The notes below the pieces were generated by a model. It ran no database searches and had not been told where the DNA came from. It saw nothing but the letters and a program-made list of their open reading frames with translations. The position numbers were made by a program, and so were the translations under genes. This document shows positions 1 through 8,544 of a stretch of 64,000 nucleotides of DNA, in pieces; the first letter of the stretch is position 1, and each line of letters starts with the position of its first letter. This DNA comes from Fennellomyces sp. T-0311 (lineage: Eukaryota > Mucoromycota > Mucoromycetes > Mucorales > Lichtheimiaceae), in contig JALLLT010000059.1 of assembly GCA_025266875.1 (NCBI GenBank), positions 62,001 to 126,000 of the forward strand, in the 5' to 3' direction.

Positions 1-1932
1 GCGGATCTTACCTCATTATACACTTTGAATTCAGATGTCTGTCCTCGCTTTTTGCTGTGAAATTCGGGAGTCTGCACCTACGTTGGTTCAGATCCCTTTA
101 GTCAGATCTTTTTCACATAAGGGTCACTGTGTTCTCTTACTCGGAAATTGGTCACTGGTTTCAAAGGGCTGTTGTCGATCTGAGGCGAGGAATCGCGTGA
201 CGATTTTTGCTGTGAATAAACAAGGTTTAGAATGCATAGATCGAACTATTGTGTCGATCGCGTCCGTACCGATTCTGGCAAGGGAGAAGACATGGGTACT
301 TGATTTTCTGTTCCTGACATTTTTGGTGGTCGAAAGTGTGGAAGAGCAGTTGCTGCACACCGAATTTCAGATTTCGTGTTCCCGTCCGTCCACAACTCCC
401 GGCTGGGTTGAAGCTCCTGGGGGGGGGGGGGCAGTAGAGACGCCGCGCCAATGATCTTAAGACTTAACGCGAAGAATATAAGGTCCAGGGAAACGCATAT
501 TAGTGTTACCGAGATTCTCCAGAAGCAGGCATGTTAATAAATTTGTACTTCCACAAAAAAAAGTGATTCTTCAGAAGAGACTGTTACTACTTCGGGTTGA
601 GATCCTTTCTTTACCTTACTCTCATTTTACGTTTATCATGGCAAGAACTAAAGGGGGCCTGAGATAAGAGCGAATAAGCGGTTAGTTAAAAGGGACGATA
701 TAAGTCAACGAGATTCAGAAAACTGTTCTTTATTGGTTAAAGAGTTCGCTCTATTTATATTCAATGCTTATAATGGATGGGACTTACATTATCGATGTTA
801 TCCATGCTCCTGTTGTGATTATACCCCTATATCCATTACGCACGCCATTTTTGGTGCTATTGAGGAACTGTGGTGTCTATCATTATGGAGCTAGTCCATA
901 TTGGATTATGGTAAGCTAAGTGATAGCTGTAGACATGCGTTCATGATAACGTCTATGACAATATCCCAGATATGGAAGATATGTGTACATGAGCGAGTTT
1001 TGCAAAAAGTGAGTGAGATATAACCTTTCCGAGATAATGATCAGTGGCTGTGTTCATGGTTGGATACAACAGTATACATCTATTACATCTAGGTTGGAAC
1101 TATGAATCGTACAACCAAACTGTACAAAAAGCACTACGAAATTTCGTTGAAAAACAAAATGCAGTTACTTTATCCCAAGCTCGATGACGAGATACCAGCT
1201 CATTGGCAAAACTAGAGAAACCCACCGACATATGCAATATCATTTGGCTTCGCATCCTCCGATCGCAGTAACCTAACCATCACTCGCACTCAGCGGTTCG
1301 CACTTCTCACAGTGGATTATTCAGGGAGATGACATAAATAAGCCATGTGAGTGATAATTAAAGTGATACCTTTTAACCATAACATAAAAGAAGCTTTTTG
1401 TTGACGACAAAATAGTAGGAACATGATGAATTAAGGATATCCCCGCATCCAATGAAATCCCATCAGATGGACATAGGCGCTTCTCATGTTTGCTTCTGAC
1501 GTTCATATGGCAGCAACGACTGGAAAAGAGGTAGAATTTTATCGGTTGCCCGATTCCACATTCAGAGGAAATAAGGAGAAAAGAAGCAGGAAGAGTATGA
1601 AGAGGAAAATAATATACGGCGCCAAAAGAAGAAGTAAAGTATATATACACTTACTGAAAGAGTACGTGTCTGCCAGTATATGAGACCCTGCATAAAAAGA
1701 GTGCTGGGCGATGCTTTGGTCATGATGATTACATTACGTAACAGAAGCCGGTATGTCTACACATTTGTCAATGGATATGCAAGTAGCTACTTGTGCACGT
1801 AATCCATTGACGATTGTCTTTGAGTTGCAGCAGCTTGTGTTCTCTTTGCGCATTCTTTGCGGGCGCCGCCCTTTTATTTACAGCAACATGTGTCATTTCG
1901 TGTAATCATATACATAATATAGTACGCTAAAG
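1..1932. other. Gene-poor left edge
   Basis: I see no convincing gene here. A 139-codon plus-strand frame at 35-454 has no recognisable domain and runs into a 12-base G homopolymer at 420-431, so I do not call it. The rest is AT-rich with scattered short frames lacking splice-linked continuations. Confidence 0.5.
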
Positions 1933-2386
1933 CTATTTACTGTCTTGTGACGACTGGGTTCCTTCACTCTTCGACTTTCTGGAACCGGCCCATTTGATAA
2001 GCTGCAAAAAAATGTCAATAACAGCGAATCTCTGGCTATTTTTCATCAGAATATACCGCATTGTTATATGCCTAAACACACGACAAACACTTGATTTACA
2101 TATAATGTTATGTAAAGTAATATTTCTTACCACGTATGAGGGGTACTCTGGATGATCTTGTTTGATTTTAGCAACCTCCTTCTGATTTAAACGTTGCACA
2201 GTGAGTGAACACGCTAATGACGAACACATACTTTACTTGTATGAATTCAGTTGCTGTCATGGCTTTCTTCGTCTTCAAATCTGGTACCCAAGGTGTTAGA
2301 AAGTACGGGAGAAAGCAGAAGATGGGCTTTAATATAAGCATACCGCTTTGCACAACTTTGGTTGCTTTTCTCTTCGCTTTGGTCAT
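1933..2386 (-). CDS. Small HMG-box-like protein (68 aa, 4 exons)
   Basis: Exons (minus) 2386-2344, 2280-2237, 2181-2131 and 2001-1933 join through GT-AG introns into one 68-residue frame. The start is rich in Lys/Arg (MTKAKRKATK). Residues 19-60 resemble the first two helices of an HMG box: KKAMTA followed by KEVAKIKQDHPEYPS and a Gly-containing turn. The usual Trp of helix 2 and all of helix 3 are missing, so it would be a truncated or degenerate box. HMG boxes bend DNA, and some are fungal sex regulators, but the TPT/helicase neighbours of the Mucorales sex locus are not seen here. It could instead be a decayed copy of a larger gene. The splice joins and frame are visible in the sequence; the family assignment is inference. 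Confidence 0.4.
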
Positions 2387-2880
2387 GCTTGTGCTTGCGT
2401 GGAAGAAAGAAGATACACAGGCGAACAAGTTTTTATTATTTACAGTCAGGCCCCGCCGTTTGCAGCAAATGGAACGGAACAGTGTATGGCGTGTCCGAGA
2501 TAAATTTACAACCAAGCACTGCAGAGCAATACAGGTATAGTCAAAGTATGGTAAAGAATCATTTCGCCATAGCTGCAAGCATGTGATTCTTCAAAGGCAT
2601 CCTTGAGTATATTAAATAGTGATACCCAAAAGGCAATGTGCTTAATATCGTAAAAAGAAGCATGGAAGCATATTCCGAAGGTAGACATTTGAGCGGAAGG
2701 GTTATTGCTTGCTCCCTATTGCAGTTATACAAGGAAGAGACAGGCATGGCTATTGTACTACCCGACCTGCTTCTGTGAACAAACGGGAACAAACCGAGGC
2801 AGCGGGAACATAATTTCTAAGAGCGTCAATGCCGAATGTCACCCTTTCCCCCTTTTTACCCGCTTTGATCAAGTGCAGAC
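2387..2880. other. Upstream flank of the Fanzor-like gene
   Basis: No gene recognised. It lies between the HMG-like gene (minus) and the Fanzor-like gene (plus), so it probably holds both promoters. I found no obvious terminal inverted repeat or target-site duplication marking a transposon end. Confidence 0.4.
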
Positions 2881-5800
2881 ATGGGTGATCAAGCTGCACC
2901 ACTTCCGCTGTTTGATGGATTCGTGGGCCCGGTACGAAGAGTAAGCAGGAACAGTGCTGTCAAGAAGTTACTGCGCGATGAATACCAATTCTTACGAGTA
3001 AGTGATTCATTCAAGTGGATCAAGCCAAACTAACTTGAAGGAAAGCCACAATTGCGTTTCATTGCCGAAATCAATGCAACACGTCGCCAAGACGCTATGA
3101 ACTTGATTAATCTTCACGTGCGAAGATATCTGGAAGGGCACTTTGCGGATTTCCCGCCGTTATCCGGGCAGAGGATATGGACGCAGGCGTATAAGCTCGT
3201 GGGCTTGAGACTGGATGAAGCAATCCCTCGATTCGATAGGCCGGTAAGTGGACTTGTGCTTAACATAGATCATGCCAGCTACTAAATACTACCATAGGAA
3301 GTGGATCTGTTCGCCACCTTCGAAGTTTTCAGAGAGTGCATACGAAATCAAGAGACAGGAGAAGGTAAGATGTGACTTCGACAGCACTGGTATGACGCTG
3401 AAGCTCATTGTTACAGCTTTCTACGAGCCGGATACCCTGGATGATGGCAGTTTGACAGCGACAATGGCAGATAATTTCGCAAGACAGGCAATCCAGAGTA
3501 AGCCTCCGTTCTATCTGTTAGAAAGACTCGTACTCACGTTTGGATAGACTATCACGAGCACATGCGAAACCTACCCCGCTTCATTGCCATAGTGTGGGAA
3601 CAAATTATCGATGGTCACCATATTGGAAATGCCAATGCCGTCAAGCGCGCTGCCAGGTTAATCACCCAAAGTATTATTGACCATCAGCCAGCACCCCCAC
3701 AAGAATTTCAAGATCTTGACATTAACGATCATTATGAGTGAGTGGTATCTACACGCGTAGCTGAAAAGGATTCAGAGCTATTTAACACATTAATTCAAGA
3801 AATATGCATATTGAATTTGAGAACTGGCTTGGTCTGGAGGTGCCCATCCAACGACTGCGTGCGCGGGATCTGACTGCAGACTTATGCATGCGCATTCTGG
3901 GTTTCAGTTCATCATTGCTCCAATTTGCAGAACTTCTCGGACTACCCAAGAGATGGTCACTGTTGCCCATTGCAAGTCATCAAGTGGTGCATTTCACAGT
4001 TTGCACACGAACGCTAGCACTGATACTACGTCGCGCCTGGCAACAGGATCATCAAAATCCTCTTCCACAACCGTTGCAGCGGGAAGTAAGCGACAGTTAT
4101 AATGGCTATGGGAAGTGTGTTTACCAACGGCCGATTTATTAGGATGGTCGTGCATTACCAGTGCAGGGCATATACCACGTGATAAGTGACAACAATGTCA
4201 AGCAGGTGATATGGGAAGCAGTCTTTCAAATGGATCATGTCAAGAGTAATCGCTTTCGACTCGGCGATGATTGTGAGTGATTAATATTGCTATACACGTA
4301 TATACTTTTATATTGACAAACGATCAATGCCTCGATAGTGAATAACTTGGTCAATGTGAACCCGTTTACGTTTGACTTTTCAATGACCACCGACGGTGTC
4401 CGCGCACACCTACTGTTTCTTCGCCCGACTTTGGCAGAACCCGGTAAGGATATGTCATCTTTTATACACAGCAGCACTAACATCACTTTAGAGAGGTTTC
4501 CTACCGTACGGGCAGACCTTCATCGCTTGGAGGACAACATGGACTTGGGCGACTGGACAAAAGGGGTGTATCTGTTGGATAAAGACCCTCGCGGTCTTGA
4601 CCAGGAGCGATTGAATGAGTCAGCAATCATTGGTGTAGATCCAGGTAACGCTCTCATTCGCTTTGGTTACCAGTACAAGTCATCCTGAATCAGAGGTAGG
4701 TCTTTCTTCCATGATTACGGCAAGCGGCACGCAAGAAGAGGGACCAGGTGACCATCGACTGCATGAGATAAGCGTCCCAACCAGGTCGTATCAGTAAGTT
4801 ATTTTATTAAAATATGTGGCCATATTTCTTGGAGACTAACAGCCATGTGTGTAGCGCCCGGACACAAGTGTTCTGGGAATACCAAAAAGAATTACAAAAC
4901 CGGGCAAAATCAGGGATAACTGCTGAATATGACATGATACGAAACCATTCAAGTCACGTGTCCTCTTCGGCGGGTTTTCAAGGTTACATCCGAGTTATTG
5001 CACAGATCAGACCAAGGTACGTACCTGATATGGCCATGTTCCGTAACACCGTCTAAAACAACTTCATAGAATGAAAGACTTTGCAATGCACTACAAGCAC
5101 AGGGAGATCCGCGCTACCCTTGCTGCAGCTAGGCAAAGCACACAAGCGCAGATCACGAATGAACTGCTGGGCATCTCGCCACCCCGTCTCCCAGTATGTA
5201 CAAAACACGGCTTTAATTCATGGTTTGTCTCTAATTCTAATCTTTTAGAACGCAAAAATCCAATTTATCCACCTTACATCAAAGCGCCAGAGGAAGAGAG
5301 CTTCCCGCCGTTGTCGACGAGACGCACAGAGAAATTTTGGGTGGGAAAGGAACCCACTGCCAACCATCAGTTTCTGGGGCGACGGTCGTATGCCGAATAT
5401 ACCTGGTTATGCGCCAATTCCGCATTTCGTACGTCTGATAATCATACATTAACTGCGCTATGATTAACTAGCGTTTATTGTAGGGCATGATTCAATTTGC
5501 GTCACGGCACATGCTTGTTATAATAACGAACGAAATGTACACCAGTCAAGTACATGCCGCTTGCGACGCGCGCCTTCGAGCGGTAAACGGGATGTATCAT
5601 CACTGCGAGCACAGGTACTTGGGTTCCACTGGTGTATGCGATCTCAATTTTACCAACCTTCATATAGGTATAAGCGACGCCGCACCACAACAGGCAACGG
5701 TACTAGGGGAAGGAACGTTCGCTGGTGTGTTGAGGAGAATTCTGCCTTCTTGGACAGAAAGTCAGAGTGTGACGAAAGGCAAAACAGAGGTAAACCTCTC

Positions 5801-6091
5801 TATTGTACCAAAAAACGAGAGTTCCTCATTTCATAAACTATAGCGTCAGAAGTTTGGGCACTGAAGCGGTGCACCAATGTGGATGCGCACATACACCCAG
5901 TGGTAAATGAAAAACCCAATGGTGCTTTTGAGCCTATGTTCTAATGAGCATTTGCTGTCTAGATTGTCAACCGCGACACGAACGCGGCCAAAAACATGCG
6001 GCGCATTGGGATCGCGTATATGGAACTGGATGGCCACCCCGACCACCGTCCCCCACCTCTCCGTCTTCCCCTACCAAATGTAAATGAATGA
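2881..6091 (+). CDS. Fanzor-like (eukaryotic TnpB/OMEGA) RuvC-type nuclease, 17 exons
   Basis: Exons: 2881-2997, 3046-3243, 3298-3364, 3417-3497, 3548-3737, 3800-4085, 4143-4272, 4339-4443, 4492-4644, 4694-4793, 4855-5016, 5070-5193, 5249-5428, 5484-5614, 5668-5789, 5844-5902, 5963-6091. All 16 introns are GT-AG (about 50-70 nt) and the joined frame is 777 codons without a stop. Landmarks: FSMTTDGVR (370-378); RuvC-I-like GVDP (Asp441); a basic stretch SKRQRKRASRRCRR (582-595); GDG (615-617); NEMYTS with Glu648; a Zn-ribbon-like HxxC (655/658) plus C725/H731; and RuvC-III-like NRDTNAAKN (Asp740). This order matches Fanzor/TnpB proteins, RNA-guided DNA endonucleases linked to transposons. Two points are odd: the exon 9/10 join replaces the Gly usual after DP, and His stands where Zn-binding Cys is expected. 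No transposon ends or guide-RNA gene were identified. The frame and motifs are visible; nuclease activity is inferred. Confidence 0.8.
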
Positions 6092-6579
6092 TAGGCTCCG
6101 ATTAAAATAGCCACAGCGTTTGTTTTTGGGTTTGACAGAAGTGTCTGGGCTTGGCCACCCCAGGCATGGCAGTCGAGCCCAAAGCAGGAATGTATAATTC
6201 TTTTCTCTATTAACTAAAAGCCAAGCGGACTTCATGTATCCAAGCGCATATATAAGTTTAAAGAGCCCTCATTTGATACTTTAAAGCATCACTTTTAAGT
6301 ACACCTTTTTCAGTGCCGCTGGCTCTAGTTACCTAATCCTACTGTTGGATTTGCCTTGAAATCCTCTAAAAAGCATAATGATGTATTAAGGAGATCCAAC
6401 TGTTGAATCTGCTTTTATTCCAGACCAAAGCTTCTAAAAATCGCTGATTTTCGACTTCACTGGCAACGCTTTCGTTTCTGTAGAAAGCTCTTTACGAGCG
6501 CCACGACACATCGAGATCGTCAGCTACCTTTGTTCCTCCTGTTGAGACAATACAACAATAGCTCGCGCTGGAAGCAGCG
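6092..6579. other. Downstream flank of the Fanzor-like gene
   Basis: No gene seen. In known TnpB/Fanzor loci the guide RNA often overlaps the end of the nuclease gene and the adjacent element end, so this stretch is the place to look for one. I cannot assign an RNA from sequence alone. Confidence 0.3.
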
Positions 6580-6857
6580 ATGGGTGACCTTCCTAGCCTC
6601 CCCAATTTGCCACCGGAATTCTTAGCTGACTGCCTATCGAGCGATGTAATAGTCAGCTATCTGCTGACTGTGATGCAACTCATGAATGGTTGTCTGAAGA
6701 GTATGACGACGGGGCCAATGTGTTATTGCATTGAATTTACCAAAATGTACTTTTAGAAAACAAAGGCCGTGCTGGAAAGGCTTCGATGCCGACCCGACCC
6801 GCTTTCATAAAAGTGGCTCGGTCCATGATGAACGCTATGCTTTCCGAGAAAGTTTAA
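6580..6857 (+). CDS. Small two-exon ORF of unknown function (73 aa)
   Basis: Exon 6580-6700, a GT-AG intron of 56 nt, then exon 6757-6857 give a 73-residue frame starting MGDLPSLPNLPPEF. The middle is hydrophobic/amphipathic (VIVSYLLTVMQLMNG) and the C-terminal half is basic (KNKGRAGKAS). Composition is less AT-rich than the flanks, which suggests coding. I recognise no family. It could also be the 5' remnant of a longer gene, because the sequence after 6857 has no continuing frame. Confidence 0.3.
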
Positions 6858-7080: not shown

Positions 7081-8544
7081 CTATCGTGGTTGCCATGTTA
7101 TTGAATCCGAGTAATAATACCGTCGTCGAGGTGAGTTTTCGCGGCTCAGCACCGGTCTACTTTGTTCAATCACACTATCAGTTTGATCATTCGAAGGTAA
7201 TTTATCCGGCTCTGTGGTATCTTGATCAGAAACTTCCTCCTTTTGACCTTGACCGCCTACACACACGATTTCATCCAAGGTGAGGTCCAATTTAAGTTAC
7301 ATTGATATTTGAATGTTACCATTGTCAACATTTTCATTTGTTATTGGATAATGGGAGAGCACGCGACCGCCCAAATTTCTGCATTCGTACTGAAGCGATG
7401 CTTTTCCAGATTCAATCATCGTTTCGGTCATGTGGCGTATCCGTAGGAACAAGTCATCACTCTCCCATTCATCATCCGATTCTTGCTACTCACTTCAGTG
7501 AGATGATCAAGGTAAATGCGAAAAGAAAGAAAAAGTTAATACCTCAGCCTGTCTTATCGGAGAGACTACTGGTTTGATATCCATTACCCCATCCCTAAAA
7601 AATGGCATATGTTAATGGGTTGATGGCCGACTAATCGAGTAATAATACAACGTACTGTTCAAGTTGTTGCTTGAGTTTGGCCACCTGAGATGCTTGTCTT
7701 TTGACAGTAATCTCTAGCATCTCATTAACAGCTAAGAGAGATAGGTTCGATATCTCCAGATCAGCTATCTATAATCATATATCACTATGCCATAACTCAT
7801 AAATCTCGGTTGTCGTCACTCTACTACCTTTCGATTCACACGCGCTTCGTTAATGACAGAATCTTCATCGCCGCCCTCGTCTTCCTCGGTTTCATCGACT
7901 GCTTTCTCGTTCCTGGATTCAATGGGGGTATCAGTAGCAAGGGTATCTGTATCACTACCAGAAAGGCTTCGACGTTTGTGGGAGTATGTTTCGGAATATG
8001 TATCAGATCGGTCACTGTCGTCATCACTGCTATCGACATACAATGGTACAGTGGTTATGGAATGGTTTGTGACAGAACGAGCCATAGAGGTTTGTACCGG
8101 TGGTACAGATGGATGTTGCCGTTGATGATGGCTAGGTATGGAAGCAGGTGTAGAAGCTGACGGTAGAACCGGTGTAGTGAGCGATCGAGAAAGCGTTTGC
8201 TTTTTTGCTGGCTTGTATATCTCGAACGATGGTTTATTGTTACGTGAAGCAGTAGTAGCTGTTGTTGTTGTCATGGTTGCTACAGGTCTCGGTCGCTGTC
8301 TCTGAGAAAAAAGGGTCGGCGGCCTCTGCGACTGCGAAGGTTTTGGAGGTGGGTGGTATATATTAAGTTGGGGCTTGCCTCCATATGGACGCTCGTCCAA
8401 GTTGACTTTTGCTGAACGCGCAACTCTTGGTTTGCTTCCAGGCAATGTCAAGGATTGCGTTGGTTGTGGGGTTTGTTTCACAGACAACGAACGGGTTGGG
8501 CGGATTATGTTGACAGCTTTCGGATGAACATTGTCCTTGACCAT
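7081..8544 (-). CDS. Conserved-looking fungal coiled-coil protein, unknown function (407 aa)
   Basis: Exons (minus) 8544-7828, 7768-7656, 7594-7543, 7485-7320 and 7256-7081 join in frame to 407 codons. The first 240 residues are low complexity (Ser/Thr/Pro/Gln-rich), with an acidic, serine-rich patch (SSDDDSDRSDTYS) and KRR. Exon 2 encodes a heptad-rich helix (IADLEISNLSLLAVNEMLE continuing to KLKQQLEQ), a short coiled coil for dimerisation. Exon 4 has an acidic block DDEWESDD followed by a second helix. It looks like a nuclear or cytoskeletal scaffold, but no catalytic or DNA-binding motif is visible. Its start lies 257 bp from the divergent UTP18 start, so the two may share a promoter region. 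Confidence 0.7.

Follow-up and report, generated by a model that had tools for sequence, protein, structure and literature searches.

A divergent Fanzor-like gene with 17 exons in a left-truncated transposon of Fennellomyces sp. T-0311

The window analysed here, a stretch of 64,000 nucleotides from Fennellomyces sp. T-0311 (Mucorales), contains an intact, intron-rich gene, BJV82DRAFT_635314, whose product is supported, from its sequence, as a divergent Fanzor, judged by its descent and the order of its motifs. The window corresponds to C138:62001-126000, where C-numbers denote contigs, and it was compared with the 45.6 Mb genome of the same organism. In the explanation that we consider probable, and the best available, the gene is the cargo of a DNA transposon that has terminal inverted repeat (TIR)-like ends and makes 8-bp target-site duplications, an omega RNA would arise from the 3′ end of the element, and the copy in the window has been truncated on its left side. 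The window copy is of the A type; relatives of B, C and D types occur elsewhere in the genome.

An intact gene with conserved introns

The gene runs from an ATG at 2881 to a TGA at 6089-6091, and its 17 exons are joined across 16 GT-AG introns of 48-66 nt each into a frame of 776 codons including the stop. A splice-aware protein-to-DNA alignment reproduced the identical 16 introns, and the spliced protein of 775 amino acids (aa) is 100% identical to the annotated one. The intact frame over 17 exons and 16 introns proposed by an earlier sequence-only reading is thus borne out in its openness but not in its length of 777 codons; placing the acceptor of intron 9 at 4699 takes away 2 aa after Asp441.

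Paralogues share this architecture. In the D-type paralogue on C109 (~50% identical), every one of the 16 introns agrees in residue position and phase, and splicing gives an open frame of 777 residues, which shows that the window frame is not a chance frame. In the B-type paralogue on C95 (~48% identical), 13 of the 16 introns are identical and 2 are displaced by 1-2 residues; a long terminal repeat (LTR)-like repeat, a copy of the one at 660-1071 of the window, is inserted in intron 2 and disturbs it. Because the positions match in both types, the introns are old in the family and have been retained through DNA-level copying.

The RuvC-type residues of the window protein are D441 in GVDPG (439-443, continuing as GVDPGL), E646 in NEMYTS (645-650) and D738 in RDTNAA (737-742). 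They follow the Fanzor order, and all three are also present in the B and D types. The motif order and Asp441 of the sequence-only reading therefore stand, its Glu648 and Asp740 become E646 and D738, and its DGV block was located as DGVR at 375. The published Fanzor/TnpB motif, D-X(125,275)-[TS][TS]-X-X-[C4 zinc finger]-X(5,50)-RD (PMC3627910; this and the other papers cited by accession are represented by excerpts), agrees with the window protein in order and spacing (D441, 207 residues, T649-S650, RD737-738) but not in its C4 finger. A zinc-ribbon-like region had been read correctly, with ligands that turn out to be atypical: H653-A-A-C656 and C723-T-N-V-D-A-H729 give HxxC...Cx5H, not C4. 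The corresponding sequences are HSSC and CRNELAH in the D type and HSGC and CLNHEH in the B type. Comparison of HAAC, HSSC and HSGC indicates that the first ribbon Cys is replaced by His in the A, B and D types, and in all three a His stands where the fourth zinc ligand could lie. The distant relative P0007 retains CYGC, and the ribbon of a canonical Fanzor family in the same genome reads CPKC...CTNPDC.

Homology to Fanzor proteins

Searched directly with PF07282 (TNB), the window protein gave a match of 14.3 bits (curated cut-off 26.3; E 0.047) over residues 637-672, the expected position. Weak matches at the expected place were also obtained for the C-termini of the D type (E 0.019) and of P0007 (E 0.038, from hand-joined pieces), and in the B-type C-terminus the match (E 0.15) lies over the RD motif. 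At an E value of 1, two of the four members of a narrower profile, A1, were matched. P0007 shares 27% identity with the window protein and contains the canonical GIDPG and DEYRTSKVCYGC.

By contrast with this sub-threshold direct match, a profile of the family matched the canonical in-genome Fanzor family in a profile-profile comparison (E 1.9e-5, probability 78%), with the RuvC-III/TNB region aligned. The local profile comparison scored 48.5, and the best of 100 column-shuffled controls 22.7. The canonical family itself passes the PF07282 cut-off at 5 of its 17 reported loci; the reading frame of L001, the one used in the comparison, reaches 25.4 bits by itself, narrowly below the cut-off of 26.3, and its best match in the PDB is SpuFz1 (E 0.18). 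A protein search yielded seven homologues of the window protein, all from the same genome, among the best-sharing 7,470-7,997 candidates, and NCBIfam and PADLOC searches gave no usable match. The Fanzor-like assignment of the sequence-only reading is upheld through these intermediates, with shuffled profiles reaching less than half the score. We therefore class the protein as a divergent Fanzor on the grounds of its descent and the order of its motifs, its homology having been traced via intermediates and no PDB chain being credibly matched by the family. The label Fanzor1-like follows from the protein's length, the TIR-type element and the Mucorales host.

Ends and target-site duplications of the element

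No transposon ends had been seen nearby in the sequence-only reading. This is contradicted by a sharp right end at 6179, 88 bp past the stop codon, by the 8-bp target-site copy that adjoins it, and by the termini and duplications of its relatives. The gene region recurs in five further A-type copies, as pieces that are 85-93% identical, and the right boundary is common to all five. Six sites of the genome carry the right-end signature (≤3 mismatches), and none carries its reversed control. Aligned by eye, the left and right termini of the family (GGCTGGGTTGAAGCTCCTGGGG and GGCTCGACTTCCATGCCTGGGG) form imperfect inverted repeats.

Perfect 8-bp duplications were found in 10 of the 19 elements examined on both sides (C95, C2:822842, C2:205259, C106, C138:148415, C46, C117, C109, C172 and C114). 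The 19 also include two elements for which no left terminus could be placed, C2:800812 and the A-type copy on C2. The C117 element has one extra base ahead of its terminus, and its duplication is still perfect. Imperfect duplications were seen at C133 (7/8), C110 and C128 (6/8 each), D-type C57 (5/8), B-type C57 (4/8), the window (4/8) and C159 (3/8). The survey of ends left out weak left-end matches on C123, C1 and C46:198153, as well as a weak gene-region match on C123 (71%, ~120 bases).

The target copies share a common start. Among 27 distinct right flanks (two duplicates were counted once, and the right flanks of D-type C57 and C114 are one duplicated stretch), 26 start with CA and 23 with CAA, and AA occupies the second and third bases in 24; the first base is partly fixed by the placement of the boundary, which admitted only C or G, whereas the second and third are free. 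The left target copies of the 10 perfect pairs also start with CAA, and the 8-bp duplications are mostly CAANNNNN. Left ends of B or C type could be read in 16 distinct cases, C2:800812 among them, and 10 of these have GCA just ahead of a CA; in the D type, T precedes CAAA at all four ends and AAT at three. One 8-bp target copy, CAAAGCAG, is shared by the window element and the B-type element at C2:822842; their flanks differ beyond it, and the agreement is probably chance.

The D-type elements (C109:436001-441400, C172, C57 and C114, with a relative also on C95) are 88-98% alike near the left end, three of four have perfect duplications, and the spliced frame of C109 is intact; they are probably a recently mobile sister family. 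Short, internally deleted derivatives retain both termini, as in C128 (C128:617601-620600, 132-703; duplication 6/8) and C117 (C117:1118501-1118960; 8/8), and in C128, which is of the A type, the right end is reduced to roughly its final 29 nt. In the window, A-type sequence starts at 2453, whereas the C2 and C159 copies extend ~190 bp further and include the left terminus region; the C99 copy is likewise left-truncated.

B-type elements (C95:193101-198300) carry a further open reading frame upstream of the Fanzor exons, which starts with MGRTKGSINKPKK in copy L039. Tested as a candidate transposase, on pieces joined from several copies, it gave only a sub-threshold match to DUF6729 (E 0.0007, 19.7 of the 27 bits required).

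Constraint on the window copy and decay of its sisters

When DNA was read against the window frame, the window copy was the only intact A-type frame, and the five others were broken or truncated. C99 carries a stop and three deletions of one base each; stops number 10 in C2 and, upstream of intron 15, seven in C159; the C96 and C68 copies are truncated. The annotation nonetheless holds shortened models for two of them, P0002 (C99, 731 aa, lacking the NEMYTS stretch) and P0003 (C159, 526 aa); 'broken' refers here to our reading of the DNA and not to the annotation.

Private changes, judged where the other copies agree, were then counted on each branch. The window copy has 7 nonsynonymous and 14 synonymous private changes, a rate ratio of 0.14, compared with 0.64, 0.58, 0.66 and 0.74 for C99, C2, C159 and C96, respectively. 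The 7N:14S of the window differs from the 173N:79S pooled over these four copies (p = 0.0017; 10 stop changes were excluded from the pool, and C68 was excluded as too short). Private synonymous rates are 0.04-0.12 on every A-type branch. The selection on the frame that the sequence-only reading had proposed is thereby borne out by measurement: as judged from these substitutions, the window lineage is shown to have been constrained after the copies parted, with the counts giving no indication of timing relative to the stranding of the copy. Together, the window copy looks stranded but maintained.

A shared hairpin at the right end

Immediately after the stop codon, a block, GATAGG...CCACAGCNTT, is similar between types and contains AATAAA in the B and D types. 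The window segment 6092-6190 folds with −39.7 kcal/mol (z −3.45), and none of 200 shuffles was as stable. Comparable values were obtained for the right ends of A-type C68 (z −2.51) and C96 (z −2.90) and of B-type C95 (z −4.06). The derivatives C117 (z −1.24) and C128 (z 0.18), for which different stretches were folded, are indistinct from shuffles. No such structure was found in any of four left ends folded (z 0.50, 0.97, 1.50 and 0.71).

Of the 24 right ends, 16 from the A, B and C types were aligned by sequence only (eight were dropped as too short, near-duplicate or divergent); on this alignment RNAalifold returned 15 pairs, 4 of them with compensatory changes. In the extended structure, 88.9% of cells pair, a level that none of 500 shuffles reached and that slid versions, at ≤52.1%, did not approach, although the slide control favours a structure that, like this one, comes from the very sequences being scored. 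The same fold is seen in two D-type right ends. Its outer stem is UUGGG...CCCAA, in which the CAA belongs to the duplicated target. These observations suggest that the right-end hairpin is a probable guide-RNA scaffold. An RNA had earlier been guessed at 5900-6600, and the likely scaffold narrows this to ~6092-6182. A genome search for targets of the predicted guide found only its own locus, with six sites at three mismatches; a reversed-pattern control gave three.

Proposed mechanism and alternatives

The constrained frame, the broken sisters, the right end, the termini and duplications of the relatives and the shared hairpin are read in the DNA itself, and from them we infer the RNA and targeting steps. 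On the model of characterised Fanzors (excerpts of PMC10432273, PMC11423790 and PMC10711439), transcription of the element's 3′ end, comprising the post-stop block and the hairpin, would yield an omega RNA with the hairpin as the last part of its scaffold. The duplicated CAA would form the base of the scaffold hairpin, and the host DNA that follows it would serve as the guide. The nuclease would then cut the matching empty site beside a short motif at or just before CAA; in the restored empty site, the predicted motif is GCACAA for most of the B type and AATCAAA for most of the D type. For a complete element, such cutting would help it to be copied back once excised, as has been proposed for TnpB. 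Having lost its left terminus, the window copy should be unable to move as a unit any more; it may act in trans for its relatives or be kept for another reason.

Several results weigh against this assignment, besides the bias of the slide control. On the protein side, the PF07282 match of the window protein lies below the curated cut-off, the annotated P0004-P0007 have no PF07282 match at an E value of 1 (several of these models are cut short), and the window protein itself has no significant match to a profile or PDB chain, nor does its family match any PDB chain credibly. The narrower profile A1 reaches the canonical in-genome family with only E 0.005 and a probability of 7%. The C4 ribbon is not conserved in the window protein, and the AlphaFold models have a predicted local distance difference test (pLDDT) score of 35.9 (7 aligned sequences) or 33.6 (4), values at which clustering of D441, E646 and D738 is unreadable. 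On the RNA side, two of the five A-type ends folded, those of the decayed C159 (z −0.03) and C2 (z −1.29) copies, are indistinct from shuffles. The count of double-change pairs does not exceed that of shuffles (59/500), shuffles show more of the further pair types, and only some three lineages contribute to the covariation count. An Rfam search of 5800-6400 returned no match.

Part of this evidence could point to a RuvC-fold transposase or passenger that is not RNA-guided, with the hairpin acting as a DNA feature for the transposase. The similarity to known Fanzors is weak, the zinc ribbon is altered, the hairpin adjoins the terminus, and internally deleted derivatives retain their termini without an intact gene. 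However, the stem-loop is found at the right end only, beside the Fanzor 3′ end. Mobility may not need the whole hairpin, because the C128 derivative retains only ~29 nt of that end. Moreover, the outer stem uses the flanking CAA, as reported for Fanzor1 RNAs (excerpt of PMC10711439). We consider a protein of this kind unlikely.

How the window copy came to persist is a separate matter, and an account compatible with Fanzor identity has about an even chance of being correct: the gene was ordinary cargo of a lineage mobile until recently, and its left end was lost later by chance. Purifying selection on a mobile lineage would yield the same 7N:14S, and the likeness of the D-type elements, their duplications and the intact C109 frame indicate that the wider family was recently mobile. 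This account sits less easily with the window copy itself, which has neither a left terminus nor a matched duplication, and with the lack of any close A-type copy (as the 85-93% identity of the pieces and the private synonymous rates on every branch indicate). Retention by the host after mobility was lost, for example for policing related transposons, would account for a frame that is constrained despite left truncation while C99, C2, C159 and C96 gained stops, frameshifts or deletions, and the right-end hairpin is also intact in the window copy. The sequence-only reading had favoured such a host-adopted nuclease on the premise that no ends were present; the premise falls, and the conclusion retains some force through the missing left end and the constrained frame. 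We nevertheless regard domestication as rather unlikely, given that the loss of the left end is undated, that private coding changes number only 21, and that no syntenic orthologue is among the seven homologues, all of the same genome, obtained from the best-sharing candidates. A bolder combination, in which a Fanzor family with an HxxC...Cx(2-5)H ribbon in place of C4 uses CAA, the bases favoured by the transposase, both as the base of its RNA stem and, together with a preceding GCA (most B-type elements) or AAT (most D-type elements), as a target motif, and the host has kept the stranded window member to act in trans, is conjectural, and we think it unlikely.

Relation to known Fanzor systems

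Fanzor1 elements have been known in Mucorales (Mucor, Rhizopus and Phycomyces) since 2013, when Bao and Jurka described them (PMC3627910). In the excerpted descriptions, they share with the window family the host order of fungi, a Fanzor-type protein and target-site duplications, and some lack a transposase of their own. Those classed as MuDR-like have 9-bp duplications and MCi-2 has 11-12 bp, whereas the window family has 8 bp, mostly of the consensus given above; with 8 bp in 10 of 19 elements, it departs from the 9 bp characteristic of MuDR-like elements. It also differs from the Mucorales Fanzor1 elements, as far as these descriptions go, in its 16 conserved introns and its non-C4 ribbon. 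In its perfect 8-bp duplications and TIRs, it resembles ESvi-1B, an IS4-type Fanzor1 element of the alga Ectocarpus (PMC3627910).

For the Fanzor1 of SfAV, Yoon et al. (2023) reported that the TIR and target duplication are part of the Fanzor1 RNA scaffold (excerpt of PMC10711439). That element is from an insect virus and its RNA expression was shown, whereas the RNA of the window family is predicted; CAA in the predicted scaffold would extend the principle of Yoon et al. to a new family. SpuFz1, GtFz1 and PpFz1 arrange their RuvC and TNB parts as the window protein does (excerpts of Saito 2023, PMC10432273, and Xu 2024, PMC11423790), although no PDB chain is significantly matched by the window family. 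PpFz1 is from Parasitella, also of the Mucorales, and its target-adjacent motif is ATN (PMC11423790); any likeness to the motifs predicted here may be coincidence. Within the genome, the canonical Fanzor family of 17 loci aligns with the window family in RuvC-III/TNB and differs in its ribbon.

Judged from listings, searches of the literature on Fanzors with Mucorales, Mucoromycota, introns, Fanzor1 or Fennellomyces showed no paper on the window family among the matches listed. Fanzors can reportedly hold many introns, as Jiang et al. are said to have described in 2023. What is new here, within a known kind of Fanzor, is the altered ribbon, the 16 conserved introns and the 8-bp CAA-type duplications. 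Because the ribbon is altered and Pfam's cut-off missed the window protein, our results suggest that entire families of Fanzors can be overlooked by profile searches that rely on the C4 ribbon. Intact, broken and internally deleted copies, exact ends and predicted RNA boundaries occur together in one genome, which offers a compact test of Fanzor function. Should the stranded copy be active, it would exemplify in nature the passage of an RNA-guided nuclease from transposon to host.

Features of the window and its surroundings

Table 1. Positions of the gene, its element and neighbouring sequences in the window
Feature	Position	Strand	Remarks
5′ fragment of a B-type relative	401..652	+	left end GGCTGGGTTGAAGCTCC, preceded by CAACTCCC; 401-495 by BLAST, rest by eye
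LTR-like repeat	660..1071	+	at least 41 other copies
Stretch between LTR-like repeat and truncated element	1100..2445		no second copy found
A-type Fanzor element, left-truncated	2453..6179	+	~190 bp including left terminus absent from window copy
Fanzor-like gene BJV82DRAFT_635314	2881..6091	+	17 exons, 16 introns, 775 aa; RuvC-type residues D441, E646, D738
Intron 9	4645..4699	+	acceptor 4699, leading into GVDPG; confirmed by identity to annotated protein
TNB/zinc-ribbon region	5484..5989	+	H653, C656, C723, H729 and RDTNAA (D738); exons 14-16 and start of exon 17
Predicted omega-RNA 3′ scaffold	6092..6182	+	two-stem hairpin closing on element end and CAA of target copy
Right terminus, TIR-like	6158..6179	+	reverse complement GGCTCGACTTCCATGCCTGGGG in relatives, one base differs here; likeness to left terminus by eye
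Right 8-bp target-site copy CAAAGCAG	6180..6187	+	no matching left copy
Predicted guide start, after scaffold	6183..6205	+	inferred from Fanzor architecture (excerpts of PMC10432273, PMC10711439)

A single element spanning 401-6181 was considered and rejected; the flanking 8-mers differ (CAACTCCC and CAAAGCAG), 401-652 belongs to the B type, and no second copy of 1100-2445 was found. Because CAACTCCC precedes the B-type fragment and CAAAGCAG follows the Fanzor element, the two are separate insertions.

Elsewhere in the genome, the P0007 gene (C26:13943-14452 with flanks) seems to run past its annotated end. Exons reading LNRDVNAACNMRR (by eye) continue beyond it, so the annotated C-terminus of P0007 is probably cut short.

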